A stretch of DNA of 64,000 bases from Aequorivita sp. CIP111184 (lineage in GTDB: Bacteria > Bacteroidota > Bacteroidia > Flavobacteriales > Flavobacteriaceae): contig NZ_UEFQ01000016.1 in the NCBI RefSeq assembly GCF_900489465.1, positions 1 to 64,000 of the forward strand. The letters run 5' to 3'. Of the stretch, positions 3,519 through 19,838 are shown piece after piece. Within the stretch, counting starts at the first letter, position 1; every line of letters begins with the position of its first letter. Below the pieces are notes generated by a model, which did not search any database, was not told where the DNA came from, and was given only the letters and a program-made list of their open reading frames with translations. A program made the translations under genes and the position numbers.

Positions 3519-5108
3519 TTACAGTTTCATTATTTTTAGAGTTGCTTGTTTTCCTTCGAGGGTTTTTACGTTTGCTAGATATATTCCAGCTGCACCGTTT
3601 ATTTCTACATTAATGGTTTGGAAGTTTTTGTAGTTTGAAGTAGAAACAGCTTGCCCTAGCATATTGAAAATGGTAACACTGGTTTCTGAAAAACTTTCAC
3701 CTAAATCTATAGTGAACGCACCATTTGTAGGGTTGGGAAATGCACTGAGGCTAGATTCGAAAGTATTTTGTGAAACTCCAAGAATTGCTGGAGTGGTTTT
3801 AAACATCCAATAATCATCCAGACCTCTATTGTTTTCGGCTTTATCACCAGAGATATTTGAGTCTGATGAACAGAATATAATAAAATTGCCATCAGCCGTT
3901 GGTAGGAGGTATGGACCACTTTCATCTGCGGAACCTCCTATTGAATTTTGGGAAATTATACTTCCCGAAGTATTCAGTTTTACCAACCAATAATCATAAC
4001 CGCCGTTGCTGTTTTCGGTCTTATCGCCAGAAATATTGCTATTGCTGTATCCCGAAATCATATAGGTATTATCTGCAAGTTGTTTCAAGTCTCGCAAATA
4101 ATCTATACCACTACCGCCAATGGTGTTTTGCCAAACCAAGTTGCCGCTGCCGTCCAATTTCAATATCCAGTAATCATAATCGCCTTGGGAGTTTTCTGTC
4201 TTTTCACCAGAAATGTTGGACTTTGAATAACCGCCCACTAGGTAGCCTCCATCTGTTGTTTGAATCATATTTCTGAAGGAGTCATTGTCATTTCCTCCAA
4301 TTGTGTTTTGCCATTGAATGGTGCCATCGGGATTCAGTTTAACTATCCAGTAATCGCTTCCTCCTTGATTTGCTTCGGTTTTATCACCAGAAATACCAGA
4401 AGTAGAAAAACCGCCAATTATAAATCCGCTGTCAGAAGTTTGGAAAGCCGCCTGAGGCCGATCAATTAAACTACCGCCAATTGCGTTTTGCCAAATGATG
4501 GCACCGTTGCTGTCCAATTTTAAAGCCCAATAATCGCGCTGGCCGTTGCTAGGTTCGGTTTTGTCGCCAGAAATGTCAGAATCAGAATAGCCGCCCACAA
4601 AGTAACCACCATCTGCAGTTTCAACCACATAAGTGTCAAATTCGGGTTGGGCGCCGCCGTAAGTTTTTTGCCAAACGATAGCTCCTGAACTATTTAATTT
4701 TATAATCCAGTAATCCAAACCACCGCGGGAATTCTCTGTTTTGTCTCCAGAAATATTCGAGTCCGAACCAGCGCCTAAAATATAACCGCCGTCTGAAGTT
4801 TGTTTTAATGAGATGAGAAAATCATCGCCACTTCCGCCAATTGTATTTTGCCACATAATGGTTCCAGAGCCGTCAGTCTTTACAATCCAGATGTCAGTTC
4901 CTCCGTTGCTGTTTTCGGTTTTTTCTCCTGAAATATTACTAGTGGAATAGCCTCCCATTATAAAACCTCCATCGGAAGTTGTTTCAAAAGCAGTTGAAAA
5001 ATCAGTACCGCTACCACCGATGGTTTTTTGCCAAATAATGGCTGGATCTTGTGAAAAGGCATTAAAAATGCCCAATATTAATACGAATAGGGTAATTGGT
5101 GTTTTCAT
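3519..5108 (-). CDS. T9SS-sorted protein with seven propeller-like repeats
   Basis: The 529-residue secreted protein has a signal peptide (MKTPITLFVLILGIFNAFSQ) and then seven tandem repeats of about 58 residues. Each carries the pattern W/I-Q-x-T-IGG...TSDGGY..GGYS.S.ISG.KTE..GG.DYW..K. Seven such repeats suggest one seven-bladed beta-propeller. The last 80 or so residues are a T9SS type A sorting domain (FPNPTNGAFTIDLGE ... GIYLANVKT ... LKIMKL), so the protein is exported across the outer membrane and probably surface-anchored. It has an ECF-like promoter shared with the neighbouring sigma factor and two further T9SS genes, and a leader motif shared with those T9SS genes. The ligand is unknown. 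Confidence 0.88.
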   Translation of the reverse strand: MKTPITLFVLILGIFNAFSQDPAIIWQKTIGGSGTDFSTAFETTSDGGFIMGGYSTSNISGEKTENSNGGTDIWIVKTDGSGTIMWQNTIGGSGDDFLISLKQTSDGGYILGAGSDSNISGDKTENSRGGLDYWIIKLNSSGAIVWQKTYGGAQPEFDTYVVETADGGYFVGGYSDSDISGDKTEPSNGQRDYWALKLDSNGAIIWQNAIGGSLIDRPQAAFQTSDSGFIIGGFSTSGISGDKTEANQGGSDYWIVKLNPDGTIQWQNTIGGNDNDSFRNMIQTTDGGYLVGGYSKSNISGEKTENSQGDYDYWILKLDGSGNLVWQNTIGGSGIDYLRDLKQLADNTYMISGYSNSNISGDKTENSNGGYDYWLVKLNTSGSIISQNSIGGSADESGPYLLPTADGNFIIFCSSDSNISGDKAENNRGLDDYWMFKTTPAILGVSQNTFESSLSAFPNPTNGAFTIDLGESFSETSVTIFNMLGQAVSTSNYKNFQTINVEINGAAGIYLANVKTLEGKQATLKIMKL

Positions 5109-5135
5109 AATATGGTTGTTTAAGGATTATATAAG

Positions 5136-5165
5136 TACATCGTGATGGATTGTGGAATGTCATCA
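5136..5165 (-). promoter_or_regulatory. ECF-type promoter P1 (T9SS propeller gene)
   Basis: On the minus strand TGATGAC (5165-5159) is separated by 16 bp from CGATGTA (5142-5136), 28 bp upstream of the ATG. The same elements with 15-16 bp spacing occur at 7752-7779, 12817-12844 and 15443-15471. The -35/-10 layout and the CG-T core resemble promoters used by ECF sigma factors rather than the usual TAnnTTTG promoter. Confidence 0.65.
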
Positions 5166-5211
5166 CTTTTTTTTGTGAAAAGTGAAAAGCTAAAAAGGAT
5201 TTGTTTTTTAT

Positions 5212-5244
5212 AAAAAAAAATGCCTCCATATTTCAGGAGGCATT
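5212..5244 (-). terminator. Terminator of T9SS beta-helix gene 1
   Basis: AATGCCTCC (5219-5227) pairs with GGAGGCATT (5236-5244), followed on the minus strand by a T-run. A near-copy of this hairpin ends the paralogous gene at 12922-12945, showing that the duplicated unit includes its terminator. Confidence 0.9.
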
Positions 5245-5279
5245 CCGGTTGTTGTTCAACCTCACAAGCTATTGAATGA

Positions 5280-7709
5280 TCATTGTTTTATAATCCTTAA
5301 AGTGTTTGATCCTTCTTTAGCAGTACTCACTTTCACAAAATAAATTCCCGCGGAAGCATTTATTTCCTTTTCAATAATTTTTGCCGAAGCGTATTTTTCC
5401 GAAGAGATAATTTGTCCCAGCATATTATAAATCTGTAGCGTTACATCATTATATTCCCTGCCCAAATCAATCGTGAATTGACCGTTTGATGGGTTTGGAT
5501 AAATTGAAAGATTGCTCAAGGTATTTTCTTCTGTTCCCAAAACGATGTTGCTTACTTTAAGGGTGACGTTATCAGGATTGCAGATTACATCAAACGTATA
5601 TCTGGTGCCATCATTATTAGCAGAAACCGTTGCGGGTAGGTTGCAACTGGTTATACTGTTTGCGGTAACTACTACAAATTCATCGTCCAAATTAATTTCG
5701 TTGTATACAGCTACCACTATATTACCATCCATAATTGCGTTGCCCTGTACGGCCAGCAGATCATACTCAGATCCTTGGGTAGTGCCATAAATTTCTATTT
5801 GAAGTTCGGAAGTTGAAGATGATTTAAAATCACTTATTACCGTAAGAGTTCCGGGATAACCGCCTGGAGAGAAAATACCGTTGTTGGTAAAGTTGGCTGC
5901 GGCAGGTACATCTATTGTTGCGGTACCCATAACCTTTCCGCCAGTCATATTTGTAAAGTTCCTTCCATCCATAAACTCCAATTCTCCAGACATAACATCA
6001 ATAATTCCCGAATTATTCGTATTCACGTTTATATAAGCAACACCCGTTCCGCTGGTTTTTTCGATAAGCCCCGCATTGTTTATGACTCCATTTTGGTCAG
6101 ACCCAATAGAGGCTTCTATTTGAAAATCAATGACGCCAGAGACCTTGTTGTAAAGGACTGAATCATTAGAAACAAACAAAGTAAATCCAGTGGTAATATT
6201 GATAGTGCCCTGATTTGCCAATGATGTAGTTCCTTCCATATATCTATTGGCATTTGAGGAAAAATTAAAAATACCATTGTTTGTTAGCACGCCGTTCCCT
6301 ACTAAATGTCCGTTATCCCAACTAAAACCATTGCCATTAAAATTCAATGTTGCCGCATCTGCTACGGTAATATAATTACCGTAACTTCCGCATTTCATTT
6401 CACCATCCAGTTGACCTGTTAGAGTGCCGCTCATATTAATATTGCCTGCAGAAACCCTCAATTCACTTCCAGAATTCACATTATATATTCCGCCATCCAA
6501 TGTTTTTTCCTGATAGCTAAGATCCAACATTCCGGTTTCCACACTTATAGTTCCAGTATTTATCATTGCAGCAGATATGGATGATATAGTTCCCACGGTT
6601 TTTTTAATCAGCCCGGCATTGTTGAAAATATGAGTACCACTACCTCCATAGTCAATAATAGCATCCGATTGAAAATCTATAACTCCTGAAGGAGCGTTGT
6701 AAAAGATGGAATTATCTTGAGTGCGCACATCGCAACCAACTACAAAATTGATAATCCCCAGATTATTCAATGTAGTAGCTCCGTCAATATATCTATTGGC
6801 ATTTGATGAAAAATTAAAAATACCATTGTTCGTTAGAACTCCGTCCCCTACCAAATGACCAGTATCCCATTTAAAACCACTTCCGCTAAAATCCACAGTC
6901 GCCGCATTAGTTACTGTAATATTACCACCATAACTTCCGCATTTCAATTCGCCATCTAGTTGTCCTGTAAGGGTGCCACTCATATTAATATTGCCTGCTG
7001 AAATACTCAATAAATTGCCAGAGGTCACATTATATATTCCTCCGTCCAATGTTTTCTGCTCTATGCCCAGGTTTAGCGTACCACTTTCTGCACTTATGGT
7101 ACCTGTATTTATCATTTTTATGTCTATGGTTGAGTAAGTTCCGCCAGTTTTTTTAATTAGTCCTGCATTGTTTAACATACGGCTCGCTGAGCCGCCTGCA
7201 ATTATATTGGCGTCCGATTGAAAATCGATAATACCAGAAACTGTATTATTAATAACAGCATCTTCCGTAAGCCACAAATAGAATCCATCTGGGAAATTTA
7301 TAGTTCCGGCATTTGTAAATATAAAAGACTCTTGCATATATTTATTTGAATTGCCTTGAACAGTAAAGCTTCCATTATTGTTCAAGATTCCCATGCCCTG
7401 TAAGTAGCCACCCGACCAAGTAAACGAGGAATTTGCCGCAATGGATGAGGCATTTGTAAAATATACTGTATTTGTCATGTTAACCTGGGAATTGCCCTGA
7501 ATGTCAAAGGATTTTACGTTCGCGCCATCCATATATAGATTACTTCCCGTTGGAATGATAACGTCATTACCTGATCCAGGAACTCCAGCAGGGTTCCAGT
7601 TAGCGGCAGTGCTAAAATAGCCACCCGACGGCCCAATCCAAGTTTTGGTCTGTGCTGAAATGGTTAAGCAAAAAATGCTTAAAATCGAAAAAAATAAAAA
7701 TCGTTTCAT
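5280..7709 (-). CDS. T9SS-sorted beta-helix-like surface protein (paralog 1)
   Basis: The 809-residue protein has a signal peptide ending near 'LTISAQ' and then 'TKTWIGPSGGYFSTAANWNPAG', a common opening of secreted flavobacterial repeat proteins. About three repeats of some 190 residues follow, rich in Asn/Gly/Thr and short turns ('NNGIFNFSSNANRY', 'NMSGTLTGQLDGE', 'NNAGLIKKT'). This is the style of right-handed beta-helix adhesins. The final 85 residues are a T9SS type A sorting domain ('IYPNPSNGQFTIDLG ... GIYFVKVSTAKEGSNTLRIIKQ'). It lies directly after the TPR-CHAT gene on the same strand and has the ECF-like promoter P2. An intact homologue-length copy, it shows what the broken gene at 12981-15416 should look like. 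Its ligand is unknown. Confidence 0.87.
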   Translation of the reverse strand: MKRFLFFSILSIFCLTISAQTKTWIGPSGGYFSTAANWNPAGVPGSGNDVIIPTGSNLYMDGANVKSFDIQGNSQVNMTNTVYFTNASSIAANSSFTWSGGYLQGMGILNNNGSFTVQGNSNKYMQESFIFTNAGTINFPDGFYLWLTEDAVINNTVSGIIDFQSDANIIAGGSASRMLNNAGLIKKTGGTYSTIDIKMINTGTISAESGTLNLGIEQKTLDGGIYNVTSGNLLSISAGNINMSGTLTGQLDGELKCGSYGGNITVTNAATVDFSGSGFKWDTGHLVGDGVLTNNGIFNFSSNANRYIDGATTLNNLGIINFVVGCDVRTQDNSIFYNAPSGVIDFQSDAIIDYGGSGTHIFNNAGLIKKTVGTISSISAAMINTGTISVETGMLDLSYQEKTLDGGIYNVNSGSELRVSAGNINMSGTLTGQLDGEMKCGSYGNYITVADAATLNFNGNGFSWDNGHLVGNGVLTNNGIFNFSSNANRYMEGTTSLANQGTINITTGFTLFVSNDSVLYNKVSGVIDFQIEASIGSDQNGVINNAGLIEKTSGTGVAYINVNTNNSGIIDVMSGELEFMDGRNFTNMTGGKVMGTATIDVPAAANFTNNGIFSPGGYPGTLTVISDFKSSSTSELQIEIYGTTQGSEYDLLAVQGNAIMDGNIVVAVYNEINLDDEFVVVTANSITSCNLPATVSANNDGTRYTFDVICNPDNVTLKVSNIVLGTEENTLSNLSIYPNPSNGQFTIDLGREYNDVTLQIYNMLGQIISSEKYASAKIIEKEINASAGIYFVKVSTAKEGSNTLRIIKQ
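5553..5744. repeat. Near-identical 192-bp segment, copy 1 (partner 13254-13445)
   Basis: This stretch, inside the C-terminal part of the T9SS gene, matches 13254-13445 with a single visible mismatch even at synonymous positions, whereas the rest of the two genes has diverged strongly. That contrast points to a recent gene conversion between the paralogs. Confidence 0.85.
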
Positions 7710-7751
7710 AATAGTTAGTTTTAGGATTATTGATAATTTGTTTATACTGGC

Positions 7752-7779
7752 TTAACGGCGTAATTGAAAAAGGTCATCA
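7752..7779 (-). promoter_or_regulatory. ECF-type promoter P2 (T9SS beta-helix gene 1)
   Basis: On the minus strand TGATGAC (7779-7773) is followed after 15 bp by CGTTAA (7757-7752). The sequence around it, including CATCTTTT upstream and CCTTTTTCAA in the spacer, closely matches the promoter region of the sigma gene at 12817-12844. The -10 element lies 43 bp from the ATG. Confidence 0.65.
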
Positions 7780-7929
7780 CTGTTTTTAGAGAAAAGATGA
7801 AAGAATAAAGAAAAAAGAGGAATGCTGAATGCTAGAACTTTGAAAATGAATATTATAAAATAAATGTAGAAAGCTAGTAGCTCCAGAATAGGCCGAAGAA
7901 TTTTGAAAACTAAAATAGAATGTTGGCTT

Positions 7930-10900
7930 TTATATCTTTTTGATTTTCTTTCTTTTAAGAAGAAAAATTACGAGAACCGTTATCAGAAGAAGACCTCCAA
8001 TCCACCACCAAAATGTATTCGAGCTGTGTTGTAATTGAATGGGAGCGGTATCGCCAATCAATACCAAACCTGCCCAATATTGTGGCGATGCAGCACGACC
8101 ATCAGCAGTGGATAGATATTTTAATTTAGCTTTTTTAAGAGCTTCATCCTTTGGGAGCCCTTCGGAAAGAAAATCATAAAAATAGCCAACTATCTGTGAG
8201 CTTGAGATTTCATCGATTGCCCAGAGGCTTGTCAAGATGCTTTCGCTACCTGCATAATTGAAGGCGTGCGCAAGGGAAATCATTCCTTCGCCAGGTTGAT
8301 AGGTAGGTTTTCCAGTTTCACAAGCCGTTAGAATGGCGAGGTTAGAGGAAAGGTCTGTATTGTAAATTTCATAACTATACAAGGAGTTTTCATCATAATC
8401 CTCTGGTCCATCCAGGGTCTTTGCGAAAATTAGCCGGGAAAATTCAGGACTTATATTGTTGCTTTCGCCATGGGTGCCAATGTGGATTATTTTGTGCTCC
8501 CCGGCCTTATTCTGAAAAACGGTTTTGGAAGCGTTTTCATTTAAAAAAGAAGTGCCATCAAAAATCTTGGAATATTTCTGGGCAAGTTTCACACTGCTGG
8601 GTTGCGATAAAAGGGTAAGGTAGGTGGCATCCTTGTTTAGGGAATCTGTGATACTGATTTTATATTCTGTCTTCATCTCTCTACTAAAACCCGGGGCGAA
8701 GGCTACAAAATTCTTTGAGAACATTTTGGGCTTTTCAGCTGCATTTAAAAGCAAAAGGCTAAAGTTGTACGAAATGGTATATCGCGCCAAAAGGCTGTTG
8801 GTGGCAAGCTCCTTATAATTTTTTATTTTAATAGGTGTTAGGGTCTCAAAGCTTAAATTGAAAAGCGCGCCATCTGGCACAATGATTATCTTTTTTGTAT
8901 GGATTAAGTTTTCCAAAGGTTTCCAAAGATTTCCATATAACTCGTAAAGCAGATCCGATTCTTCTTCCAAAGAAGGCTGTGGTTTATTTAGGTATTCAAT
9001 GTGGTTTTTGACTGGCTCGAAATCCAATTTTATGAGGTTGCGATTTTCCTTGTCCAAAACCATGACGTACAAAATTTCGTCAATGAAGAAATAGCGGATA
9101 ACCGTAGTATTTTCGGGAATGTATTTTTGAAGATTTTGGAGTGAAACGTCTAAAGTGGCAAACTTCATTTTATAATATTTTGGATATGCGGTTTTTAAAG
9201 AATCCAAAAAGGAGTTATAAATATCGTTCGCCCCAAGATAGCTTTGAAATGAGGGAGTGGAATCTTCAATGCTGGCTGCAATGCTCACAGCATCTTTTTT
9301 TAGTTTGCTTTCTCTTTTTACAATTCTTTCGGGTACATCTGCAAAGTTGATTTCGTCCTGTACCATCAATTTTGATCGAATGCTGTAATAGACACTATTT
9401 TCCTGGGTTTCTATAAGTTTGGTAAGATATTTTTTGTTTTTAGTTTGAATGTACAAGTCTGAATAAAGCTGCTTTGTGAAACCATACAGACCTAAAAAAT
9501 TAGAATACAATACATTAACATTATCATCTTTTGAAATTAAGGCTTTTTGGTCTTCAAGAATTTTAAAAGCATGCTCCATATTCTTCAATAACTCTTTTAA
9601 AAATACGGAGTCCTTAACGGTTTGTTGTTTATAGCTAGCTTTTGAATGTTCCAGAATTAAAAGCGGTTTTAGGTAAGTGAGCTTTACAGCATTAAGGCTC
9701 GTGGTCTTGTTTTGGGCCAGTTTGTCAATAAAAGAAATTCCCTTTTTACTCCACTCCAAGGATTTTGGATAATCGCTTACGGTGTAATAAACTTTAGCTA
9801 AATTCAGCATATGCGAAATTAGGTCGTTATTGTTCTCACCTCCGTTCTTTTTTAAGTAATTATACGCATTTAAAGCAGTGCTAATTGCAGCTTCCGGCTT
9901 ATTGTTTTTTGCTAGAAACATTGCTTTATCGATGGCAAAATCCAAATAGGTATCATCTAAGTTTTCGCCCAAGGCACTTTTGTATAATTTATCGGCTTCA
10001 TTATAGGTTTTTTCTGCTAGCGCTATTTCCCCTTTTTTTTCATAGCAAGTTGCAAGGCTTCCTGTGGCGATTGCCTGCCAGAAGATATCTTGGCCAGCAT
10101 CTGTCTCGTATATTTTTAACACCTTTTGGAAGGACGCAATGGCCTTATCAAATTCCTTTAAAGACATTTGGGTCTGTCCCAACAAAACAATGGAGTGCGA
10201 TTTTTCAGGATCACTATCTTGATACAATTGATCTCTTTTATGATAGATATAATTTACAAGTTCATAAGCGCGATTTACGTTGCCGATGTTATTGTAAAGT
10301 GTTGATAGGTTTGAAATACCTATCCATAGAAGGCGTTTGCTATCCTCAACCGTAGCATCATCCTTAGACTCCTTGATTACAAAAGAACAGTCCTTTATTA
10401 TTTTTTCGAGCGTTTGTTTCGCTTCGGAAATATTTCCCCGGGCTTCCATTATCTGTGAAATGTTCAACTGAATACCCGCTGCTGAATATATTTTGTACAC
10501 GGAATCCTTATCTGCTTTTTGAAGACTGCTAATTGATTTTTCAAAATAGTATTGTGCACTGTCCAATTTTTGGGAGCGCCACATCAAAACACCAAAAAAA
10601 TTATTTACATCCGATAATCTGTTATAGTCTTTTTCGTTTGATTTCAGGAAGTGATTTTGTGATTTTTTGCACTGACGGGTGGCGTCTACATATTTTCCCG
10701 AGAAATAATAACTACGCGTTAAGACGTAATATGCCTCACCAATTTCATTTTGTGTTGCATCGTTTACGGAAAGAATAGTTTGCAATGATTCTTGAGATGC
10801 CTCAAATGCTTTTTGAGTCTCACCTAAATCTTGATATAGGTAGGATAGATCATGCAAAGCTTTATATTGGGCACGTTTGCTGGCGCCAAGTTTTTTTAAA

Positions 10901-11190
10901 TTTTCTATAAATAGTACTGATTCTTTAAGCGCATTGTCTTTATCACTTTTTAAAAGTGAAATCTGACCTATATACTCTATATATTGGGCGAGGGAATCTA
11001 TTTCCGCTGCATTTTTAAAAGTTTCTATTTGGGATTGAAGTGCGGAATCGGCCTGCTTAACCTGATTTTTTAAAAGATAAGAGTCTATTATTGCTGTTCC
11101 TGTAATTGATTTTTCTTGAGCAATTAAATTTGTTGGGGAGAGCAAAACGAAAAAAGCCAGGAAAAAGCAAATTTTGAATTGTTGCCCCAT
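7930..11190 (-). CDS. Periplasmic TPR-CHAT caspase-like protein 1, membrane-anchored
   Basis: The 1086-residue protein has a signal peptide (ending about residue 25), a long series of tetratricopeptide repeats (roughly residues 40-520) and a C-terminal CHAT domain (about 760-1050). The caspase-like dyad is intact: His907 in 'IIHIGTHGES' and Cys957 in 'AILTACETGKP'. A single membrane segment near residues 1061-1079 is followed by a Lys/Arg-rich tail, which by the positive-inside rule places the TPR and CHAT parts in the periplasm. CHAT proteins are proteases or protease relatives. The gene lies downstream of a sigma factor and a membrane TPR protein and upstream of two T9SS genes. A role as a protease triggered by partner binding is my inference; the substrate is unknown. 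Confidence 0.9.
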   Translation of the reverse strand: MGQQFKICFFLAFFVLLSPTNLIAQEKSITGTAIIDSYLLKNQVKQADSALQSQIETFKNAAEIDSLAQYIEYIGQISLLKSDKDNALKESVLFIENLKKLGASKRAQYKALHDLSYLYQDLGETQKAFEASQESLQTILSVNDATQNEIGEAYYVLTRSYYFSGKYVDATRQCKKSQNHFLKSNEKDYNRLSDVNNFFGVLMWRSQKLDSAQYYFEKSISSLQKADKDSVYKIYSAAGIQLNISQIMEARGNISEAKQTLEKIIKDCSFVIKESKDDATVEDSKRLLWIGISNLSTLYNNIGNVNRAYELVNYIYHKRDQLYQDSDPEKSHSIVLLGQTQMSLKEFDKAIASFQKVLKIYETDAGQDIFWQAIATGSLATCYEKKGEIALAEKTYNEADKLYKSALGENLDDTYLDFAIDKAMFLAKNNKPEAAISTALNAYNYLKKNGGENNNDLISHMLNLAKVYYTVSDYPKSLEWSKKGISFIDKLAQNKTTSLNAVKLTYLKPLLILEHSKASYKQQTVKDSVFLKELLKNMEHAFKILEDQKALISKDDNVNVLYSNFLGLYGFTKQLYSDLYIQTKNKKYLTKLIETQENSVYYSIRSKLMVQDEINFADVPERIVKRESKLKKDAVSIAASIEDSTPSFQSYLGANDIYNSFLDSLKTAYPKYYKMKFATLDVSLQNLQKYIPENTTVIRYFFIDEILYVMVLDKENRNLIKLDFEPVKNHIEYLNKPQPSLEEESDLLYELYGNLWKPLENLIHTKKIIIVPDGALFNLSFETLTPIKIKNYKELATNSLLARYTISYNFSLLLLNAAEKPKMFSKNFVAFAPGFSREMKTEYKISITDSLNKDATYLTLLSQPSSVKLAQKYSKIFDGTSFLNENASKTVFQNKAGEHKIIHIGTHGESNNISPEFSRLIFAKTLDGPEDYDENSLYSYEIYNTDLSSNLAILTACETGKPTYQPGEGMISLAHAFNYAGSESILTSLWAIDEISSSQIVGYFYDFLSEGLPKDEALKKAKLKYLSTADGRAASPQYWAGLVLIGDTAPIQLQHSSNTFWWWIGGLLLITVLVIFLLKRKKIKKI

Positions 11191-11380
11191 ATTGGATTTT
11201 TTCTTAAATATAGAAATAAAATTTTATTCATTAACATTTCATTAAGAATAATAGCATTTTCTTTCCGCTAAAAGATTTATAGTTTAAGAATATCTATAGT
11301 AGAATTTTTTTTAAGAATGAAAAACGGTTAGCGACACTATGCAAACTGGAATCGCGTAAACTAATTTTCTAAAGCGGCAT

Positions 11381-12133
11381 TTATTCTTCTTGAAGTAATT
11401 TTAGGAGCTTGGTATTTCGATCTGAAGGGTATTTATTCAACAATATTTTGGCTTCCTCGAATTCCCCTTTCTTTATTTTTGCCAATCCGGTATAATAAGC
11501 AGCATCTTCTTTAAAGATACCTTGTTGGAAACGTGTTTCATTTTGAAGAAATTTTAATGATTTGTCCGCATTGCCCAATGCCAAATTTGCTACTCCCAAA
11601 AAGTAATTTACAGTGTCGTTTTCTGGGTTATCCTTTATTAAAACTTCCCATTTCGCAATGGCTTCATTGTAATTTTCTTGTTTATAATCCAGCATTCCTT
11701 CATAAAATTCTAAGTTGTTTGTAGCACCCATTTTTAGGGGCAAACCAATATCTGGCTTAAAGTTTTCAGCAAAGATTTTTTCTGAGGTGGAGTTGCTTTG
11801 CATCATCCAAAAAATACCTATTAATGCAACCATTACGGCGGCAATAGAATACCACAAAATCTTGGAATTTGAGTTGTGGGCAGGGAGCGTTCTTACATCC
11901 GTACCTCTTTCTGCAACTCGCACTTGACTGTGAAATTCTTTAATTTTTGATTGCCGAATGCTGTCCTCAATTTCTTCCTTTACTTTTTTAATGTGTTCTA
12001 TTTTTTTCTTTACGTCTGGGATTTGAGTAAGTTTTTCATTCCACATTGTTGCATTATCTGAAGCCTCGTTTTGGTTCAGATAAGTTTCAATTATATCCCA
12101 TTCTAATGGGTTTATGTCAATTTGGTATTTCAT
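11381..12133 (-). CDS. Membrane TPR protein, possible anti-sigma partner
   Basis: The 250-residue protein has a charged N-terminal region of about 90 residues with a coiled coil (residues 38-70) and no signal peptide. One membrane span follows (about 92-111, 'ILWYSIAAVMVALIGIFWMM'), then a C-terminal periplasmic part with two or more TPR units ('NYNEAIAKWEVLIKDNPEND'). It starts 20 bp after the sigma gene stop, so they are co-transcribed. Cytoplasmic N-terminus, single span and periplasmic sensor is the layout of anti-sigma factors, but the usual zinc or RskA-type signature is not visible. Its TPRs could contact the TPRs of the CHAT protein encoded next. The anti-sigma role is inferred from layout and position. 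Confidence 0.75.
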   Translation of the reverse strand: MKYQIDINPLEWDIIETYLNQNEASDNATMWNEKLTQIPDVKKKIEHIKKVKEEIEDSIRQSKIKEFHSQVRVAERGTDVRTLPAHNSNSKILWYSIAAVMVALIGIFWMMQSNSTSEKIFAENFKPDIGLPLKMGATNNLEFYEGMLDYKQENYNEAIAKWEVLIKDNPENDTVNYFLGVANLALGNADKSLKFLQNETRFQQGIFKEDAAYYTGLAKIKKGEFEEAKILLNKYPSDRNTKLLKLLQEE

Positions 12134-12153
12134 TCTTTAAGTTTACTTTTTTA

Positions 12154-12726
12154 CTAACTACTTTTTTCTAAAGCCAACTCCTTTAATTTTTGAATGCATC
12201 TATATTTTTTGTTCTTTGCTGAAGCTTCTTCAATATTCAGTTTTTGGGCGATCTCTCTTACGGACATTTTATGAAAATAAAATTCTGTCAACAGTTCTTT
12301 GCACGCTGGGCCCAAGTTTTCAAAAGCGGTTAATGTTATGTTTAATTGTTGTTCCTTTTCGTTACTTTCATGGTTTAAGGCTGTTTCATCTGCTTCCAAC
12401 TGATACAATCTTTCATCTATTGTTGTTGTTTTTCTTTTTCCAACAGCCCTTGTTTGATCTATCCATTTATTTTTTGCAGTTGTAAACAGATACGCTTCAA
12501 TTTCAGTTCTGTTATTTGGACAAAAATTACCCGAGCTCAGTTTTTTCCAGCAGGCAAAATAGGCTTCTTGAAAAACATCATTAGCATTGTCTATAGTCCC
12601 CCCGTTTTTAAGGATATAATATTTGGTTTTCGGATATTCGGCAATATAAAATTCTTTTACAGGCACTTCTTTATTGTTTAAAAAAGCATCTAGCAATTCA
12701 AAAGTTTGTAATGTGGTATTTCCCAT
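12154..12726 (-). CDS. ECF-type RNA polymerase sigma factor
   Basis: This sigma-70 family protein (190 residues from the ATG) carries a region 2 ('VFQEAYFACWKKL ... AYLFTTAKNKWIDQTRA') and a region 4 helix-turn-helix ('LTEFYFHKMSVREIAQKLNIEEASAKNKK'), without regions 1 or 3. An in-frame TTG lies upstream at 12747, but the ATG at 12726 fits better. It should direct RNA polymerase to a small set of promoters. Its own upstream region has the TGATGAC-N15-CGTTAA element (12817-12844), and three neighbouring T9SS genes have the same element, so autoregulation and control of those genes are likely. It is followed by a membrane TPR protein and a TPR-CHAT gene on the same strand. Confidence 0.88.
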   Translation of the reverse strand: MGNTTLQTFELLDAFLNNKEVPVKEFYIAEYPKTKYYILKNGGTIDNANDVFQEAYFACWKKLSSGNFCPNNRTEIEAYLFTTAKNKWIDQTRAVGKRKTTTIDERLYQLEADETALNHESNEKEQQLNITLTAFENLGPACKELLTEFYFHKMSVREIAQKLNIEEASAKNKKYRCIQKLKELALEKSS

Positions 12727-12816
12727 AAAAATAAAGGAAATATACAAATTTTAACTTTAAACAAATTTTCATTTTTGGGAAAAAAAGTAAAAATTATAAT
12801 GAGTTTCCACACTCTT

Positions 12817-12844
12817 TTAACGGCTGTTTTGAAAAAGGTCATCA
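12817..12844 (-). promoter_or_regulatory. ECF-type promoter P3 (sigma operon)
   Basis: On the minus strand TGATGAC (12844-12838) is followed after 15 bp by CGTTAA (12822-12817). This is nearly the same as P2 at 7752-7779, including the flanking bases, and shares the core of P1 and P4. Its position upstream of the sigma gene suggests positive autoregulation. Confidence 0.65.
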
Positions 12845-12915
12845 ACGTTCTAGAAAAAAGATGAATGAAAAAAGAAAAAAGACGGATGACTGATTTTAAC
12901 TTCACTTTGCTCACA

Positions 12916-12945
12916 ATAAAAAATGCCCCATATTTCAGGGGCATT
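12916..12945 (-). terminator. Terminator of the interrupted T9SS gene
   Basis: AATGCCCC (12922-12929) pairs with GGGGCATT (12938-12945), with A-rich sequence on the + strand giving a minus-strand T-run. It is a near-copy of the terminator at 5212-5244. Confidence 0.88.
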
Positions 12946-12980
12946 CTGGTTGGTGTCCAACCTCACAAGCTATTGAAAGA

Positions 12981-15416
12981 TCATTGTTTTATAATCCTTA
13001 ACGTGTTTGATCCTTCTTTAGCAGTACTAACTTTCACAAAATAGATTCCCGCGGAAGCATTTATTTCCTTTTCAATAATTTTTGCCGAAGCGTATTTTTC
13101 CGAAGATATTTGCTGCCCCAACATATTATAAACCTGTACGTTTACATCAGTGTATTCCCTGCCCAAATCTATAGTAAATTGACCGTTTGATGGATTTGGA
13201 TAGAGAACAAGATTGCTCAATGAATTTTCATCAGTACCCAGCAGAATATTGTTCACTTTAAGGGTGACGTTATCAGGATTGCAGATTACATCAAAAGTAT
13301 ATCTGGTGCCATCATTATTAGCAGAAACCGTTGCGGGTAGGTTGCAACTGGTTATACTGTTTGCGGTAACTACTACAAATTCATCGTCCAAATTAATTTC
13401 GTTGTATACAGCTACCACTATATTACCATCCATAATTGCGTTGCCTTGCACGGCAAAAACATCGTATTCCGTTCCAGCGGTTGGTCCATATATTTCACTC
13501 AACATAATTGTATTTGAAGAAGAGGTGTAATTGCCAATATAGGTTAACGTTCCGGGGAAACCACCTGGAGAAATAGTGCCATTAAAACTTGTATTACCTA
13601 CAAGTTGAATATTTCCATTTCCGGTAATTGTACCATCGCCAATAAACGTACCTGTAAGATTTAACAATCCGGTCTCGGCGATAATTTTTCCTGGACTGTT
13701 GTTGGTCATATTGCTAGCAATGCTGTAGTTGCCAGTATTTGTTACTTTTTTAATAATACCTGTGTTTACAATATTTCCATTTCCGCTAGCAGCTTGTATG
13801 GAACCATCTGAGGTTATATTTAAAATTCCGGAATCTGTATTTAAAAAGGTAGGTGTGCCATAAGCAATAAAGAGTACTCCTGAAGTATTGATGTTAAAAT
13901 CGCCTTCATTTCTAAAAATTGACTGTCCTCCAATTGCCACGGCACTTGCACTCTCCATATTTATTACTCCTGTATTAGTAAGTGTGCCATCACCATTAAA
14001 CCCTCCAGAAAGCCATTTTACTCCAGCTGGGCCATGAAAGGCCAATGTTGCATTTGTGCCTTGGGCAACGGTTAGGGTCCCAGTCCATTCTAAGGATCCG
14101 TCAATTTGCCCTGTTAAAGTACCTAAACATGTAAAGGTAGCGTTCCAATCTAGCGTGCTTCCCAAGGTTACATTATAGGTTCCATCTGTAAATTCAGTAA
14201 GTGTGTTTTGAATTTGTAGTGTTCCGCTTTCTACTGATATGGTTCCGTCATGGTTTTCCAATGGGATGTTTATGCCATAAATACCTGTGCCCTGTTTTCT
14301 CTTAATAATCCCTGTGTTAATAATTGTGCCCTGTCCACTTGCCGCTTGAATTGAACCACTACTTGCATTTAAGTTTATAATTCCCGAGGAAGTATTATTT
14401 ATAGTCGGGCTTCCATAGCCCACAAACTGAATTCCGGTTGAATTAATATTAATAATGCCTTCATTCATAAGTGTTGAAAGACCGCCAATGGCTTTAGATG
14501 TGTTGGTTTCATAATTCAATACTCCCATATTTTTAAGCGTCCCGTCACCAGAGAATCCACCAGAGGTCCAATTTATTCCTTGTGGTGTATCAAAATCTAA
14601 AATAGCTTGGGTACTTGGGGCTACACTAAGGGTTCCTGTCCAATTTAAATTTCCGTCTAGTTGTCCTGAAAGCGTTCCTGTGCAGGTAAAAGTTGAGTTC
14701 CATTCCATTAATTTACCAGAACTTACATTATAGGTTCCTCCATTAAATTGTGTAAGTGTATTTTGAATTTGCAGTGTTCCACTTTCTACAGAAATAGTTC
14801 CGTTATTATTAATAAGCGGAATGTTTATGCCGTAAATACCTGCGCCTTGGGCCCGTCTAATAAGACCGGTATTTATTATAGTGCCTTGTCCGCTTGCAGC
14901 CTGTATAGAACCACTAGGGGCATTAAGATTTATAACTCCCGATGCAGTATTGTTAAAAGTTGGACTGCCATACCCAATTAAGTGAATACCTTCAAAGTTT
15001 ATATTGTAAGTTCCATTATTTATAAGAGTTACCTAATTTGCAATTACAGTTCCCCCATCATTTAAATTCATCGTGCCATTGTTCGTTAATGTTCCAGAAC
15101 CGGAAAAAGTTCCAAATGTCCAATTAATTGTAGCATTTGTAGCTATACTGGAGGCATTGGTAAAAGTGAGATGGTTGGTCATTGTTGCCACTGAATTACC
15201 CTGTAATGCTATAGATTTAATGGATGGAGCACCATTAATAATCAAATTACTTTCTGAGGGAATAATAACATCATTAGTTGTTCCTGGAATTCCAGCTGGA
15301 TTCCAATTGGCAGCCACATTAAAACTACCACCCACTGGCCCAACCCAAGTTTTGGTCTGTGCTGAAATTGTTAAGCAAAAAATGCTCAGTACGGAGAAAA
15401 ATAATAATCGTTTCAT
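12981..15416 (-). pseudogene. T9SS-sorted beta-helix-like protein (paralog 2), broken by one TAG
   Basis: Two open segments in the same frame (15416-15036 and 15032-12981) are split only by a TAG at 15035-15033, codon 128. Reading through gives about 811 residues, matching the 809 of the intact paralog. The protein has a signal peptide, a 'TKTWVGPVGGSFNVAANWNP' opening, about three repeats of some 185 residues ('GTIINTGIIKR', 'SVESGTLQIQNTL', 'GTLTGQIDGSLEW') and a T9SS type A sorting domain. In the aligned repeat the stop sits where another copy has Gln ('IGGQSIF'), so a single CAG to TAG change explains it. The rest shows no decay. Possible readings are a fresh pseudogene, a phase of on/off variation, or a sequencing error. 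Promoter P4 is intact. Confidence 0.85.
13254..13445. repeat. Near-identical 192-bp segment, copy 2 (partner 5553-5744)
   Basis: Same orientation as the copy at 5553-5744 with one visible mismatch. It encodes the conserved linker just before the T9SS sorting domain. Flanking coding sequence is much more diverged, which suggests gene conversion rather than whole-gene recency. Confidence 0.85.
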
Positions 15417-15442
15417 AATATTTGGTTTTAGGATTACAACTC

Positions 15443-15471
15443 TACATCGAATCGTTTTCAGAATGTCATCA
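15443..15471 (-). promoter_or_regulatory. ECF-type promoter P4 (interrupted T9SS gene)
   Basis: On the minus strand TGATGAC (15471-15465) is followed after 15 bp by CGATGTA (15449-15443), 27 bp before the ATG. The -10 element is identical to that of P1. It lies back-to-back with the mvaD promoter. Confidence 0.65.
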
Positions 15472-15490
15472 CTTAAACCGAAAAGAATTT

Positions 15491-15498
15491 TACTTTTG
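15491..15498 (+). promoter_or_regulatory. TAnnTTTG box upstream of mvaD
   Basis: TACTTTTG matches the Bacteroidota -7 consensus TAnnTTTG and lies 18 bp before the mvaD ATG. No clear TTG is seen at the expected -33 position, so only the -7 half is supported. Confidence 0.5.
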
Positions 15499-15516
15499 TA
15501 ATACTATTATTAAGAT

Positions 15517-16593
15517 ATGCCTGAACATCGTTTTATTGTCTGTAACTATTCCCACAATTTATCTGCTGGAACTATTTCTTGGCAATCTCCCAGCAATATC
15601 GCTTTAGTAAAATACTGGGGGAAATACGGTGAGCAACTGCCAATGAATGCATCAGTAAGTTTTACCTTGAGCAACTGTCATACAAATACCAAGTTGTCTT
15701 TTGAAAAATCTTCTTCTCAGCAATTTAATTTTGAAGTATATCTCGACGGAAAAAGAGAAGAAAGCTTTGAACCGAAAATTCAGAAATTCTTTGAAAGAGT
15801 GGAAATGTATTTGCCTTTTCTTAAAGACTTCAGATTTAAGATTGAAACATCCAATAGTTTTCCGCACAGCAGTGGTATAGCTTCCTCAGCCAGTGGCATG
15901 AGTGCTTTGGCGCTTTGTTTAATGGATATGGAGCGGCAAATGCAACCTAATATTACCCAAGAATATTTTAATGAAAAAGCATCTTTTCTTGCTCGTTTGG
16001 GTTCTGGTAGTGCCTGTAGAAGTATAGAAGGTCCGTTAATTGTTTGGGGCGAACACCCAGAAATTGAAGGTAGCACCAATTGCTTTGGAACAAAATATCC
16101 ATTTGAGGTTCACAAGAATTTTGAAAACTATCAAGATATCATTTTGCTTGTTGATAAAGGAGAAAAACAAGTGAGCAGTACGGTAGGTCACGATTTAATG
16201 ATAGATCATGCTTTTGCTGAACAGCGCTTTCGGCAGGCAAAGGATAATCTTTCAAAGTTGATACCTGTTTTTAAAAATGGGGATCTCTCCGAGTTTATAA
16301 AAATAGTGGAAAGCGAAGCATTATCACTGCACGCCATGATGATGACCTCGATGCCCTATTTCATACTGATGAAACCAAACACCTTGGAAATAATTAACCA
16401 CATTTGGAGATTCAGAGAAGAAACAGGGAGTAACATCTGTTTTACGCTAGATGCGGGTGCCAATGTTCACGTGCTTTACCCAACAAGTGAAAAGGAAATA
16501 GTATTGCAATTTATAAAAAACAAGCTTTCACAGTTTTGTAAAAACGGGGAGTTTATTATTGATGAGGTAGGTTTAGGTGCAAAAAAGCTTTAA
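15517..16593 (+). CDS. mvaD: Diphosphomevalonate decarboxylase
   Basis: This 358-residue GHMP-superfamily enzyme performs the ATP-dependent decarboxylation of mevalonate diphosphate to isopentenyl diphosphate, the last step of the mevalonate pathway. It shows the N-terminal 'SPSNIALVKYWGKYG' signature, the phosphate-binding loop 'SSGIASSASGMSALAL' and 'GSGSACRSI'. The length is in the usual range. The ATG follows a TAnnTTTG box. Its stop overlaps the stop of the CHAT gene on the other strand by four bases. The mevalonate kinase gene lies 3.5 kb further on, with the CHAT gene between them. Confidence 0.95.
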   Translation: MPEHRFIVCNYSHNLSAGTISWQSPSNIALVKYWGKYGEQLPMNASVSFTLSNCHTNTKLSFEKSSSQQFNFEVYLDGKREESFEPKIQKFFERVEMYLPFLKDFRFKIETSNSFPHSSGIASSASGMSALALCLMDMERQMQPNITQEYFNEKASFLARLGSGSACRSIEGPLIVWGEHPEIEGSTNCFGTKYPFEVHKNFENYQDIILLVDKGEKQVSSTVGHDLMIDHAFAEQRFRQAKDNLSKLIPVFKNGDLSEFIKIVESEALSLHAMMMTSMPYFILMKPNTLEIINHIWRFREETGSNICFTLDAGANVHVLYPTSEKEIVLQFIKNKLSQFCKNGEFIIDEVGLGAKKL

Positions 16594-19500
16594 ACGCTTA
16601 CTTGCTCTTTATTTTTAAGAATTGTTATTATGAGTAAAACAGTAACAATTCCTGCCAGCAAATACCACCACCAAGCCACACCAGTATTTAAATCTATGGG
16701 AGTAATATCGCCAATTAAGACCAATCCAGCCCAATATTGTGGAGCAGCTGTTCTTCCTTCTGCATTGGCAATGTAGCTTATTTTCGCTTTACGCAAGGCT
16801 TCGTCTTTAGGCATGCCTTCGGAAAGGTTGTCATAAAAAAGCTTAACAATTTTTGCGCTAGATTCTTCGTCAATTTCCCAAAGACTGGTCAAAATGCTTT
16901 CGCTACCTGCATAATTAAAAGCGTGTGCCAAAGAAATCATTCCTTCCCCAGCTTGGTAGGTGGGCTTTCCAGTTTCGCAAGCGGTGAGAATGGCGAGATT
17001 GGAAGATAGGTCTATATTATAGATTTCATAGGAATACAATGAGTTTTCATCATAATTCTCTTTATTGTCAGTTTTTTTTGCAAAAATAAGTCGGCTCAAT
17101 TCAGGACTTATATTGTTGCTTTCAGCATGTGTCCCTATGTGAATTATTTTATGCTCCTTTGCCTTATTTATGAATAGATTCTTGTTGGCGTTTTCATTTA
17201 TAAAATAATCGCCATCAAAAGTTTTGGCGTATTGCTTCACCAAATCTTCGCTAAATGGCTGTGGCAAGAGTGTTAAATATGTTTTGTCCAATTTCACGGA
17301 ATCTTTGATAGTTAACTTGTATTCTTCCTTCATTTCCTTGTTGAAACCAGGTGCAAAAGCAATAAATTCAGAAGAATAATCTGCAACTTTGCCTTTGTCT
17401 TTATAAAGCAAAAGGCTGAAATTATAGGAAATGTCATAATTTGCCAACAAACTATTGGTCGCCATTTCCTGAAAAGAGCGCATCGGTTTTGGGGTAAGCG
17501 TTTCAAAACTGAGGTTGAAAAGTTCGCGATCAGGAACGATCACAACTTTTTGGGTGTGAATATATTTTTCCAACGGAAACCATAAGGCGCTGTAAAGTTC
17601 ATAGAGCAACGGACGCATTTTTTCGACTGAAAACTCATCGTTTTCCAGTTTTGGGATATGGTTTTTTACAGACGTATAGTTCAGCTTTATCAATTTTTTT
17701 AAGGATGCTGAAACTACAAAAGCGTGAAGCTCCTCTTCAATAAAAATGTAGCGTACAATCGTGGTGTTTTCAGGTATTTTTTTCTGAAGATCGTTTAGAG
17801 GTTCTTCTAAAGTAGCATATCGCATTTTGTAATATGTAGGGAAATTTTGTTTCAAGGAATCCAAAAAATCGTCCCAGTTTTGGGAAGCTTTAAAATAGGG
17901 CTGTATGCTACTGTTTTCTGAATCGTTTAATGAAGAAACCATCTTGGCTTTCAGCTGGTTTTCTCTTGCAACAACTTCTTTTGGAATATGTTTAAAATTC
18001 ACATTATCGCGAAGGTTTAGCCGCGAGCGAATACGGCTATAGATGCTAGATTCGTGTAGGGCGATCAGTTTATCAAGATATATTTCGTTCTTGGTCATTG
18101 TATAAAGCTCCAGTCTAATTTTTTCTGCAAAATTTAAAAGCTCCTCATTTTCGGAAATAAGTAAGGTAACGTCTTCGTGATTGTTTACTACCTTTTTCCG
18201 TTGATCCAAAATGGAAATGCCTTCTTCCACTTGCTGCAACAGTTGCTTCAATAGAAAAGGACTTCTGTTTTCCGTAGAATAGTATTTTGATTGGGCATTG
18301 ATGAGCAACGCCTGTGGTTTTCTGTATTGGCTTAAAATGGAATCTGTGGCGCTAATTTTTTCACCCTTTAAAACGTTGAACTTTAAAGCTTCACTACTAT
18401 ATTTTTCTGCTTCACTGTAATTTTTTAGCAAATAATGAACCTGCGCTAAATTGATGGTGTGATAAAATTCCTGAAGGGTGTTCTTGAAATCGCCGGTATG
18501 CGTAAACGCATATGTTTCTTTTGCTAATGCAATTGCTTTTTCCTTTTTTTCGTTTTTTGCTGAAAAGAGCGAATATTCTAAAATGTTGTCCAGAAAATCT
18601 TTGGTGTAGGTTCTTCCCATGGATTTTCGATATACAGTTTCAGCTTTTTCATAGAATTTGGCTGCATTTTCAACATCGTCCATAAATTCATAGATGGTGG
18701 CGCGAGTTGATAGGGCTGCGGCCTCCCAATATAAATCTGCTCCCGGACTTGTATCTAAAAGTTTTAAGGCTTGATCTGCATTTTTTGAAGCTCCTTCAAA
18801 ATCACGGCTTGCCGTTTTGGCTTCAGCAAGAATGATGTTTGAAATGATGATGTTAATGTCGTTCATTTCAAAGAGTTTCTTTTTCTGCTCAAAGGAATAT
18901 TCAATGAGTTCCTGAGATCTGGAATACTCGCCCAATGTGTTATAAAAGGTAGCCATATTATCTATAATTACACATTGGTGGTTTTTCGCTTTTAAAGTCC
19001 TTGCTTCATCCGTAGAGCGGTTTATATATTGTTGAAACCCAGAAAGTGCTTCTTCCGAAATAGCAATGGCTTCCTGATTTTTGCCGAGAGCGTTCCATAA
19101 AACTGCAAGGTTCATTTTAACTAATGAAGGACGGTAAAAACGGTTCATAATATCGGTTTCATCTGTTTTCTCCAAGACCTTTACTGCTTCCTGAAAGTAG
19201 AATTTTGCGCTGTCAAGTTTAGCTTCCTGCCACATCATACCGCCAAGGGCATTATACACTTGGTTGTAGAAAACATAATCCTCTTTTCCAGTTTTTATTA
19301 ATAAGCGCAATGACTTCTGGTAATGTTTATTTGCTAGAAGAAAATCGCCCATTTTTGAGGCGTAATAACCACGACGATATTCCAAGCCTGCAGTATCGGT
19401 ATTGTTTTTTTCTTTGTTGCGAAATGCAAAAGGAATGGCAGTTTCCAGTATGGCGTAGGCTTTTTGTTGTTGTCCAGCATCATCATAGATCCAGCCAAGT

Positions 19501-19838
19501 TCAGTAATAGCTTCTACAACAAAATGAGGGGAGGCTTTACTCGTTATCTCTTGGGTAAGTATTTCTGCTTTTTTTAGAGCCAGCTTTTTGTCGCCGTTGT
19601 TTAATTTAGAACTTCCTTCAAACTGGATGTAATTGTAAAGACTGTCGTATATTTTTTCGGCACGATAGAAAGTGAGATTTTTTGACACTTCAGTACGCGC
19701 TTTTGCAAGGGAATCTTGCTCAATCAAAGTTTGGATTTCTATAACGGAAGTAATTTTATGCTGGGCATAACCAGCAAAAATTGAAAATATAAAAAAGAAC
19801 GGGAAGACAAAAAAGAATCTCCGGATTTTAGATACCAT
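16590..19838 (-). CDS. Periplasmic TPR-CHAT caspase-like protein 2, membrane-anchored
   Basis: A 1082-residue paralog of the protein at 7930-11190 with the same layout: signal peptide to about residue 25, TPR-rich region, C-terminal CHAT domain, one membrane span (about 1056-1075) and a short tail. The dyad is His904 ('IIHIGTHAES') and Cys954 ('AILTACETGKP'). The CHAT core is highly similar to the first copy ('PTYQAGEGMISLAHAFNYAG'), while the TPR part has diverged, which suggests a changed binding partner. It sits between mvaD and mevalonate kinase on the opposite strand, apparently inserted into that cluster, and just beyond the interrupted T9SS gene. A poor match to the shared ECF element lies 80-110 bp upstream. 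Confidence 0.9.
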   Translation of the reverse strand: MVSKIRRFFFVFPFFFIFSIFAGYAQHKITSVIEIQTLIEQDSLAKARTEVSKNLTFYRAEKIYDSLYNYIQFEGSSKLNNGDKKLALKKAEILTQEITSKASPHFVVEAITELGWIYDDAGQQQKAYAILETAIPFAFRNKEKNNTDTAGLEYRRGYYASKMGDFLLANKHYQKSLRLLIKTGKEDYVFYNQVYNALGGMMWQEAKLDSAKFYFQEAVKVLEKTDETDIMNRFYRPSLVKMNLAVLWNALGKNQEAIAISEEALSGFQQYINRSTDEARTLKAKNHQCVIIDNMATFYNTLGEYSRSQELIEYSFEQKKKLFEMNDINIIISNIILAEAKTASRDFEGASKNADQALKLLDTSPGADLYWEAAALSTRATIYEFMDDVENAAKFYEKAETVYRKSMGRTYTKDFLDNILEYSLFSAKNEKKEKAIALAKETYAFTHTGDFKNTLQEFYHTINLAQVHYLLKNYSEAEKYSSEALKFNVLKGEKISATDSILSQYRKPQALLINAQSKYYSTENRSPFLLKQLLQQVEEGISILDQRKKVVNNHEDVTLLISENEELLNFAEKIRLELYTMTKNEIYLDKLIALHESSIYSRIRSRLNLRDNVNFKHIPKEVVARENQLKAKMVSSLNDSENSSIQPYFKASQNWDDFLDSLKQNFPTYYKMRYATLEEPLNDLQKKIPENTTIVRYIFIEEELHAFVVSASLKKLIKLNYTSVKNHIPKLENDEFSVEKMRPLLYELYSALWFPLEKYIHTQKVVIVPDRELFNLSFETLTPKPMRSFQEMATNSLLANYDISYNFSLLLYKDKGKVADYSSEFIAFAPGFNKEMKEEYKLTIKDSVKLDKTYLTLLPQPFSEDLVKQYAKTFDGDYFINENANKNLFINKAKEHKIIHIGTHAESNNISPELSRLIFAKKTDNKENYDENSLYSYEIYNIDLSSNLAILTACETGKPTYQAGEGMISLAHAFNYAGSESILTSLWEIDEESSAKIVKLFYDNLSEGMPKDEALRKAKISYIANAEGRTAAPQYWAGLVLIGDITPIDLNTGVAWWWYLLAGIVTVLLIITILKNKEQVSV

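Follow-up and report, generated by a model that had tools for sequence, protein, structure and literature searches.

A Bacteroidota module of a sigma factor, a membrane-spanning TPR protein and a tethered TPR-CHAT protein that may make the first cut in an anti-sigma factor

We analyzed a window of 64,000 nucleotides from Aequorivita sp. CIP111184 (NZ_UEFQ01000016.1, positions 1 to 64,000; contig C38 of a 3.5-Mb genome), with emphasis on a cluster of genes for an extracytoplasmic function (ECF) sigma factor, a tetratricopeptide repeat (TPR) protein with a single membrane span (the TPR partner), a TPR protein with a CHAT domain, and two cargo proteins of the type IX secretion system (T9SS). As an initial annotation of this DNA had stated, these five genes lie in this order on one strand, i.e., the reverse strand (Table 1). 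The same annotation placed another T9SS gene and a second TPR-CHAT protein of the same design alongside; both are present, but the T9SS gene has an in-frame stop and no sigma gene adjoins the second CHAT gene.

Table 1. Features of the window that are discussed in the text (positions are those of the window)
Feature	Position	Strand	Remarks
T9SS cargo protein, 529 aa, repeat or beta-propeller-like	3519-5108	-	Por_Secre_tail E 6.5e-11
Promoter-like TGATGACATT-N-CGAT(G) upstream of T9SS gene 3519-5108	5139-5165	-	
T9SS cargo protein, 809 aa	5280-7709	-	Por_Secre_tail E 2.8e-11, TIGR04183
Promoter-like TGATGAC-N-CGTT, about 45 bp upstream of T9SS gene 5280-7709	7754-7779	-	
TPR-CHAT protein, 1086 aa; predicted signal peptide, TPR and CHAT in the periplasm, transmembrane tether at the C-terminus	7930-11190	-	
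CHAT domain, residues 747-1047, with H907 and C957	8050-8952	-	candidate S1-pocket positions L869, T955, E994
Membrane-spanning TPR protein, 250 aa, candidate anti-sigma factor	11381-12133	-	
Juxtamembrane motif KPDIGLPLKMGATN, residues 126-139	11717-11758	-	M135 (codon 11729-11731), candidate P1 residue
ECF sigma factor, 197 aa from TTG (190 aa from ATG at 12726)	12154-12747	-	TIGR02937 E 3.8e-21
Promoter-like TGATGAC-N-CGTT upstream of sigma gene	12819-12844	-	
Third T9SS cargo gene, in-frame stop after residue 127	12981-15416	-	Por_Secre_tail E 2.5e-11 on downstream reading frame
Promoter-like TGATGACATT-N-CGAT(G) upstream of T9SS gene 12981-15416	15446-15471	-	
Second TPR-CHAT protein, 1082 aa, same design	16590-19838	-	PF12770 E 8.9e-42; N- and C-terminal hydrophobic segments

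In family profile searches, sigma2 and sigma4 regions but no sigma3 region were found in the sigma factor, for which PF08281, PF07638 and PF04542 also scored above cut-off. The two CHAT proteins scored 132.4 and 143.9 bits against PF12770 (cut-off, 24), and their C-terminal hydrophobic spans lie at residues 1060-1078 (CHAT 7930-11190) and 1056-1074 (CHAT 16590-19838); the closest named CHAT matches of the genome are from Aequorivita and Gelidibacter (Flavobacteriaceae). Since each window CHAT also has a predicted N-terminal signal peptide, the TPR-CHAT body is predicted to be periplasmic and tethered to the inner membrane; the periplasmic location proposed in the initial annotation is thus retained, but for a tethered rather than a free protein. 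The His/Cys dyad that it reported as intact is present in both window proteins and in all 109 CHAT proteins aligned. Four CHAT genes are found in the genome, one of which, on contig C16, departs from this design: its product has a part that resembles an alpha/beta-hydrolase, and the gene has no sigma gene in its vicinity (by eye). The C-terminal sorting domain was found in the T9SS cargo proteins of the window and the SprA_N family is present in the genome; SBBP and delta-60 matches of the T9SS protein at 3519-5108 were below cut-off.

The arrangement of sigma factor, TPR partner and CHAT protein is not limited to the window. On contig C13 of the same genome, the order of sigma factor, TPR protein with a span, and TPR-CHAT protein with signal peptide and span is repeated, with diverged sequences and flanking T9SS genes. 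Among 78 named loci, the three genes are found in direct succession at 59 (open reading frames (ORFs) of <100 aa ignored), and a partner is located within 6 kb at 62; the exceptions are mostly contig ends or Aequorivita loci with an apparent orthologue of the second window CHAT. Linkage was also assessed in 103 stretches with 109 CHAT proteins, i.e., 100 neighbourhoods, the window's first 30 kb, L005 and L006, with a CHAT gene in 102 of them; the 100 neighbourhoods (28 regions from an order search and 72 from a phylum search, among the matches listed) were picked by hand from E-value-ordered lists, and weak CHAT matches are thus under-represented. A same-strand gene follows within 120 bp downstream of 54 of the 58 sigma genes in these stretches, and 47 of these 54 genes have products of 195-338 aa for which exactly one span is predicted. 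A partner-family member is located within 6 kb of 46 of the 55 CHATs with a C-terminal span as compared to 13 of the 53 without (L006 left out). The orientation of the genes varies among modules (co-directional, convergent or divergent); linkage has thus outlasted the operon layout, which speaks for a functional connection.

With a profile (A1) built from 34 partners adjacent to CHAT genes, we obtained 30 matches below 1e-40 in 19 of 148 genomes of the order, followed by a gap to 3e-19. Strong matches were found in all 18 genomes with a CHAT gene as compared to 1 of 130 without; as the profile was built from CHAT-adjacent partners, presence is partly by construction, and the absence from 129 of the 130 CHAT-lacking genomes is the informative part. 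In a phylum-wide sample, 50 of 296 genomes matched at 1e-15, and 44 of these 50 (tallied by hand) carry a CHAT gene, as compared to 148 of the 296 genomes overall. Because the gene order recurs on C13 and in 59 of the 78 named loci, sigma factor, TPR partner and CHAT protein represent a dedicated module rather than a chance cluster, a conclusion that is well supported by computation.

The AlphaFold model of the 250-aa TPR partner comprises a cytoplasmic N-terminal domain of three helices (residues 9-20, 28-36 and 41-70), a span at about residues 90-112, a periplasmic linker with a helix (116-124) and a coil (125-140), and C-terminal TPRs. As its position after the sigma gene and its topology fit, the reading of this protein as anti-sigma-like, put forward in the initial annotation, is well supported by computation. 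Fold evidence for an N-terminal anti-sigma domain was set aside, as the matches included no solved domain of this type, although they mainly cover the TPR part. Class I anti-sigma domains comprise four helices, the first three of which form a bundle, and they are found beside 6% of Bacteroidetes ECF sigma factors as compared to 32% on average (PMC7406223). The TPR partner family may be one that has been overlooked among Bacteroidetes anti-sigma factors.

The coil just outside the membrane is among the most conserved stretches of the TPR partner. In the clade to which the window protein belongs (the M clade), it reads PDPGLPTTM(S/G), with a methionine (M135 in the window protein) that every one of the 54 aligned sequences shares; the corresponding stretch of other clades is approximately PYPNxxxPxxR(G/S). 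Across 144 family members, the residue aligned to M135 is M in 68, R in 61 and K in 3, with other residues or gaps in 12; M is found in the window's clade, R in most clades and K in one. The next residue is G or S in 67 of the 68 cases after M and, outside the M clade, in 54 of 64 cases after R or K. Among 77 members outside the M clade, the R column ranks third in conservation of 231 columns (0.79), behind two alanine columns. The region around M135 is coil in the AlphaFold model, with predicted local distance difference test (pLDDT) scores of 93, then 65. R, K or M is kept in 124 of 130 partners with a CHAT gene within 8 kb as compared to 8 of 14 without a CHAT in the locus (P = 2e-4), and in 2 of 7 members from CHAT-less genomes (L166-L172, tallied by hand) as compared to 130 of 137 others (P = 3e-5); as many of the sequences are related, the P values given here and below overstate independence.

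Changes on the CHAT side parallel those in the partner. Among 18 CHAT columns with one residue in at least 90% of R-type proteins, exactly three, i.e., E869, S955 and D994 (window CHAT numbering), change in both the M and the K clades. E869 is found in 54 of 54 R-type CHATs as compared to none of 67 M-type CHATs (which have L, V, I, A or T) and none of 3 K-type CHATs, and it is kept in all 52 CHATs outside the M clade that have no paired partner. K-type CHATs carry D955, two residues before the catalytic Cys. In caspases, the position two residues before this Cys lines the S1 pocket, and small P1' residues are favored. An acidic residue that is lost where the substrate residue is not R, and moved where it is K, would be as expected of a P1/S1 pair. 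The tree requires three changes of residue type, i.e., one for the M clade with L148, one for the K clade nested in R types, and one for L090. An S1 pocket read directly from the CHAT model was rejected, as confidence is too low there (pLDDT <50 at residues 849-862, 908-945 and 956-992).

The sigma gene and all three T9SS genes of the window are preceded, on their own strand, by a promoter-like site, TGATGAC-N13-16-CGWT, which occurs four times in the window as compared to 0.12 expected. In the named loci, a strict form (TGATGACATT-N10-13-CGATG) is found upstream of 12 of 67 sigma genes, 9 of 78 T9SS genes, 26 of 982 other genes and 0 of 84 CHAT genes, and a relaxed form (TGATGA-N14-18-CG(A/T)T) upstream of 23 of 67, 23 of 78, 60 of 982 and 0 of 84, respectively; the patterns were chosen after dyad counts in these loci, and the later tests on the window and on whole genomes draw in part on species already represented there, the window among them. 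Of the 38 matches listed before other genes for a middle form, many appear by eye to precede lipoprotein genes next to the module. In the whole genome, five strict sites are present; two are in the window, and the remaining three precede the sigma gene on contig C35, a lipoprotein-like gene and a gene for a protein with a T9SS-type C-terminus (the latter two by eye). Across 149 family genomes, a strict site was found in 17 of 25 M-type genomes (40 sites; M-type genomes are A5 matches at E 1e-60 or better, counted by hand) as compared to 4 of 124 others (4 sites; P = 5e-13). Of the 36 sites read in M-type genomes other than that of the window, 10 precede T9SS cargo genes, 9 lipoprotein-like genes, 11 other genes whose products have a signal-like N-terminus, and 4 the sigma gene, whereas 2 sites (one of them a repeat) were unreadable; signal calls are crude, as 2 of 4 control sites passed too. 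Looser matches at L266 and L268, from the window's own genome, lie inside or across the end of reading frames and were not counted.

A T9SS gene is the 3' neighbour of 26 of 66 modules as compared to 97 of 2127 background genes (kinship ignored). The initial annotation had named sigma factor, TPR protein, CHAT protein and T9SS genes as a set to be sought in related genomes; the first three are indeed neighbours at the majority of loci given above, but T9SS genes are frequent, inconstant 3' neighbours. As the window T9SS genes share the promoter-like site of the sigma gene, these neighbours are best read as a regulon. A predicted sigma regulon of T9SS cargo and lipoproteins is supported for the M clade, and the earlier proposal that the sigma factor adjusts the supply of T9SS cargo is probably right, given the site common to the sigma gene and the three T9SS genes.

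Two further observations concern genes that carry the site. The third T9SS gene, broken by the stop codon at 15033-15035, keeps its promoter-like site and may represent a pseudogene or an assembly error. Lipoprotein-like genes of about 380 aa with a similar C-terminus are located upstream of the module, preceded by the site, in loci such as L210, L236, L240 and L257 (by eye) and perhaps encode a further component.

We propose a mechanism in which the sigma factor would, in the resting state, be held at the inner membrane by the anti-sigma factor, and in which the CHAT protein would be activated by an envelope signal sensed through the TPR arrays. The CHAT protein would then cut the anti-sigma factor in the conserved juxtamembrane stretch, between M (in the M clade) or R (in most other clades) and a small G or S, and a site-2 protease, probably RseP, together with cytoplasmic proteases would release the sigma factor. 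In the M clade, TGATGAC-N-CGWT promoters would serve the sigma factor for transcription of its operon and of genes for lipoproteins and T9SS surface cargo, a step for which there is computational support. We consider it probable, by a modest measure, that the CHAT protein is the protease of the first cleavage step of the anti-sigma factor and that the sigma factor then drives T9SS cargo and lipoproteins. The wider proposal, i.e., a group of envelope signalling systems in several families of Bacteroidota, each with a tethered caspase-clan protease dedicated to the first cut, in which pocket and substrate residue were switched together (R, M, K) at least twice, and whose M clade governs part of the T9SS and lipoprotein surface proteome, appears evenly poised between right and wrong.

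In addition to the relatedness of the sequences, a number of observations weigh against this proposal. Cleavage of the anti-sigma factor by the CHAT protein is the most likely mechanism, and one that we infer from covariation. The switches among R, M and K amount to three changes, a small number, one of which (L090) is on a long branch with an ambiguous motif (M, then R) and with position 994 still D. As the CHAT model is poor at the pocket, the placement of residues 869, 955 and 994 in one pocket would follow from analogy. Six of the 130 partners with a CHAT gene within 8 kb lack R, K or M, and 9 of the 55 C-tethered CHATs have no partner in the stretch examined. Two CHAT-less genomes, G406 and G346, retain R (L167, L168), exceptions that are softened by a sigma factor that is unrecognised in L167 and by the fusion of sigma factor and partner in L168. 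No solved anti-sigma domain is among the Foldseek/VIA rows, which mainly cover residues 134-250, so that we infer the anti-sigma assignment of the partner. Most module sigma genes have no recognisable site, even in the relaxed form (23 of 67 with a site), 8 of the 25 M-type genomes have no strict site, and among R-type modules no common promoter was found and no dyad was clearly above shuffles. As a separate observation, the fused sigma/anti-sigma ORF (L168 8005-8976) and the anti-sigma gene without a recognised sigma gene (L167 8807-9538) may reflect decay after protease loss.

Coevolution of two interacting proteins would leave a similar pattern if the CHAT protein were a sensor without proteolytic action whose binding to the juxtamembrane motif and the TPRs shifts the conformation of the anti-sigma factor, with R or M as a docking residue; moreover, DdvA of Myxococcus xanthus joins CHAT and anti-sigma functions in one transmembrane chain. 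The His/Cys dyad kept in 109 of 109 CHATs, the changed columns that include the position two before the catalytic Cys, and the small G or S after the candidate residue speak against such a sensor, and we regard this explanation as unlikely. A CHAT protein that is only a downstream effector regulated by the sigma/anti-sigma pair (e.g., a death or defence protease) appears improbable: CHAT proteases are known effectors and DdvS controls an antiphage island (PMC12288465), but none of 62 module CHAT genes is preceded by the promoter motif in its exact form and 1 of 62 by a form with one mismatch, none of the four window proteins scanned has a PADLOC match, and the anti-sigma motif tracks the CHAT gene.

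According to the initial annotation, the CHAT protein may have T9SS cargo as its object, to be processed or policed, while the sigma factor would adjust how much cargo is supplied. The periplasm would be common to CHAT protein and cargo, and T9SS genes are enriched as 3' neighbours; however, 40 of the 66 modules have no recognised T9SS gene in this position, the T9SS proteins encoded in or close to modules are of many kinds (subtilase, endonuclease I, HYR/Ig and repeat proteins), and the promoter-like site that the window T9SS genes share with the sigma gene explains them as regulon. The covariation ties the CHAT protein to the juxtamembrane segment of the TPR partner instead; an action of the CHAT protein on T9SS cargo is not supported, and this explanation is the least probable of those considered here.

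With regard to the second cut in the proposed anti-sigma cascade, the only PF02163 (M50 site-2 protease) match in the genome is located upstream, on the same strand, of a sigma/anti-sigma pair on contig C35 that is unlinked to the window (L163 8124-9432) and has no CHAT gene in the 17 kb examined. A promoter-like site (L163 9586-9612) lies between the rseP-like gene and this pair, which together occupy L163 8124-11009. In 23 of 28 genomes of the genus (hand count; exceptions are G562, G567, G575, G581 and G584), the best M50 match is located 0.3-0.9 kb upstream of the M-type partner on the same strand, which, as a single synteny within one genus, is supportive only. The C35 pair and the second window CHAT may belong together, as the former is a pair without a CHAT gene and the latter a CHAT gene without a pair.

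CHAT genes that resemble the second window CHAT and have no sigma gene nearby were also observed in a number of Aequorivita loci; in the window, this gene is flanked by two GHMP-type genes (15517-16593, diphosphomevalonate decarboxylase family, and 20109-21047). At window positions 1-411, an ORF resembles what we take to be the C-terminal end of a transposase. In L182, a 650-aa gene with PKD, DUF7619 and DUF7849 (10957-12909) is located directly upstream of a tethered CHAT gene, and genes of similar length occupy this place in several loci of one genus. PorP/SprF and OmpA, guessed from gene lengths beside Flavobacterium-type CHATs, were rejected in light of this domain content, and the 323-aa neighbour gene in L182 had no family match above cut-off.

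Membrane-tethered CHATs thus gain a partner and a predicted cut site and, in one clade, also a predicted promoter and regulon; co-switching of pocket and substrate residue, if true, would represent a natural series for studying protease specificity. In the literature covered, which mostly does not include subscription papers, no description of the sigma/TPR/CHAT module was found, and CHAT was paired with ECF or anti-sigma factors only in PMC10028731 and PMC11417357, in which the CHAT proteases belong to CRISPR systems; PMC7159879 contains no mention of CHAT, ECF, sigma factor or anti-sigma.

One of the two nearest precedents is Craspase, a type III-E CRISPR system with Cas7-11/gRAMP, the TPR-CHAT protein Csx29, Csx30 and CASP-sigma, in which Csx29 is a protease with the sigma inhibitor Csx30 as its substrate (PMC10028731). 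Craspase belongs to a CRISPR locus and responds to target RNA, whereas the window module has a membrane-spanning inhibitor and a CHAT protein for which a periplasmic location is predicted; a Craspase-type soluble TPR-CHAT protein has neither signal peptide nor span, both of which are predicted in the window CHATs. No cas genes were found among 12 window ORFs scanned, the rest of the genome not having been searched for Cas7-11/gRAMP, and membership in Craspase or a defence system was rejected, as no PADLOC family matched the four window proteins and the sole match of the C13 CHAT was to a TPR model (2.9e-5). Similarly, in the CalpL/CalpT/CalpS system, a protease cuts the anti-sigma factor of an ECF sigma factor (PMC11417357), but this protease is of the Lon type, is under the control of cA4 and forms part of a CRISPR system.

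On the side of the regulon, the F. psychrophilum SM6 promoters, which are of ECF type with a CGT -10 box and lie before T9SS components (PMC9723704), and PorXY-SigP (PMC7712824) represent comparable ECF regulation of T9SS in Bacteroidota; these involve a different motif and apparently different genes, and CHAT is not mentioned in the main text of PMC9723704. The other of the two nearest precedents, the DdvS/DdvA pair of M. xanthus, consists of an ECF sigma factor and a transmembrane anti-sigma factor with a CHAT domain of its own (PDB 8rot/8rw5), in which H and C are retained in the alignment; DdvS becomes active once DdvA is inactivated, by a signal that is unknown (PMC4374960). In DdvA, anti-sigma and CHAT functions are on one chain, whereas in the window each has a gene to itself (11381-12133 and 7930-11190, respectively), and the linker site of the two-protein module covaries. 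The proposed cascade shares with the sigma-E pathway (RseA/DegS/RseP) a membrane-spanning anti-sigma factor that is cut first by DegS and next by RseP (PMC10028731); in place of DegS, the first protease of the window module would belong to the caspase clan.

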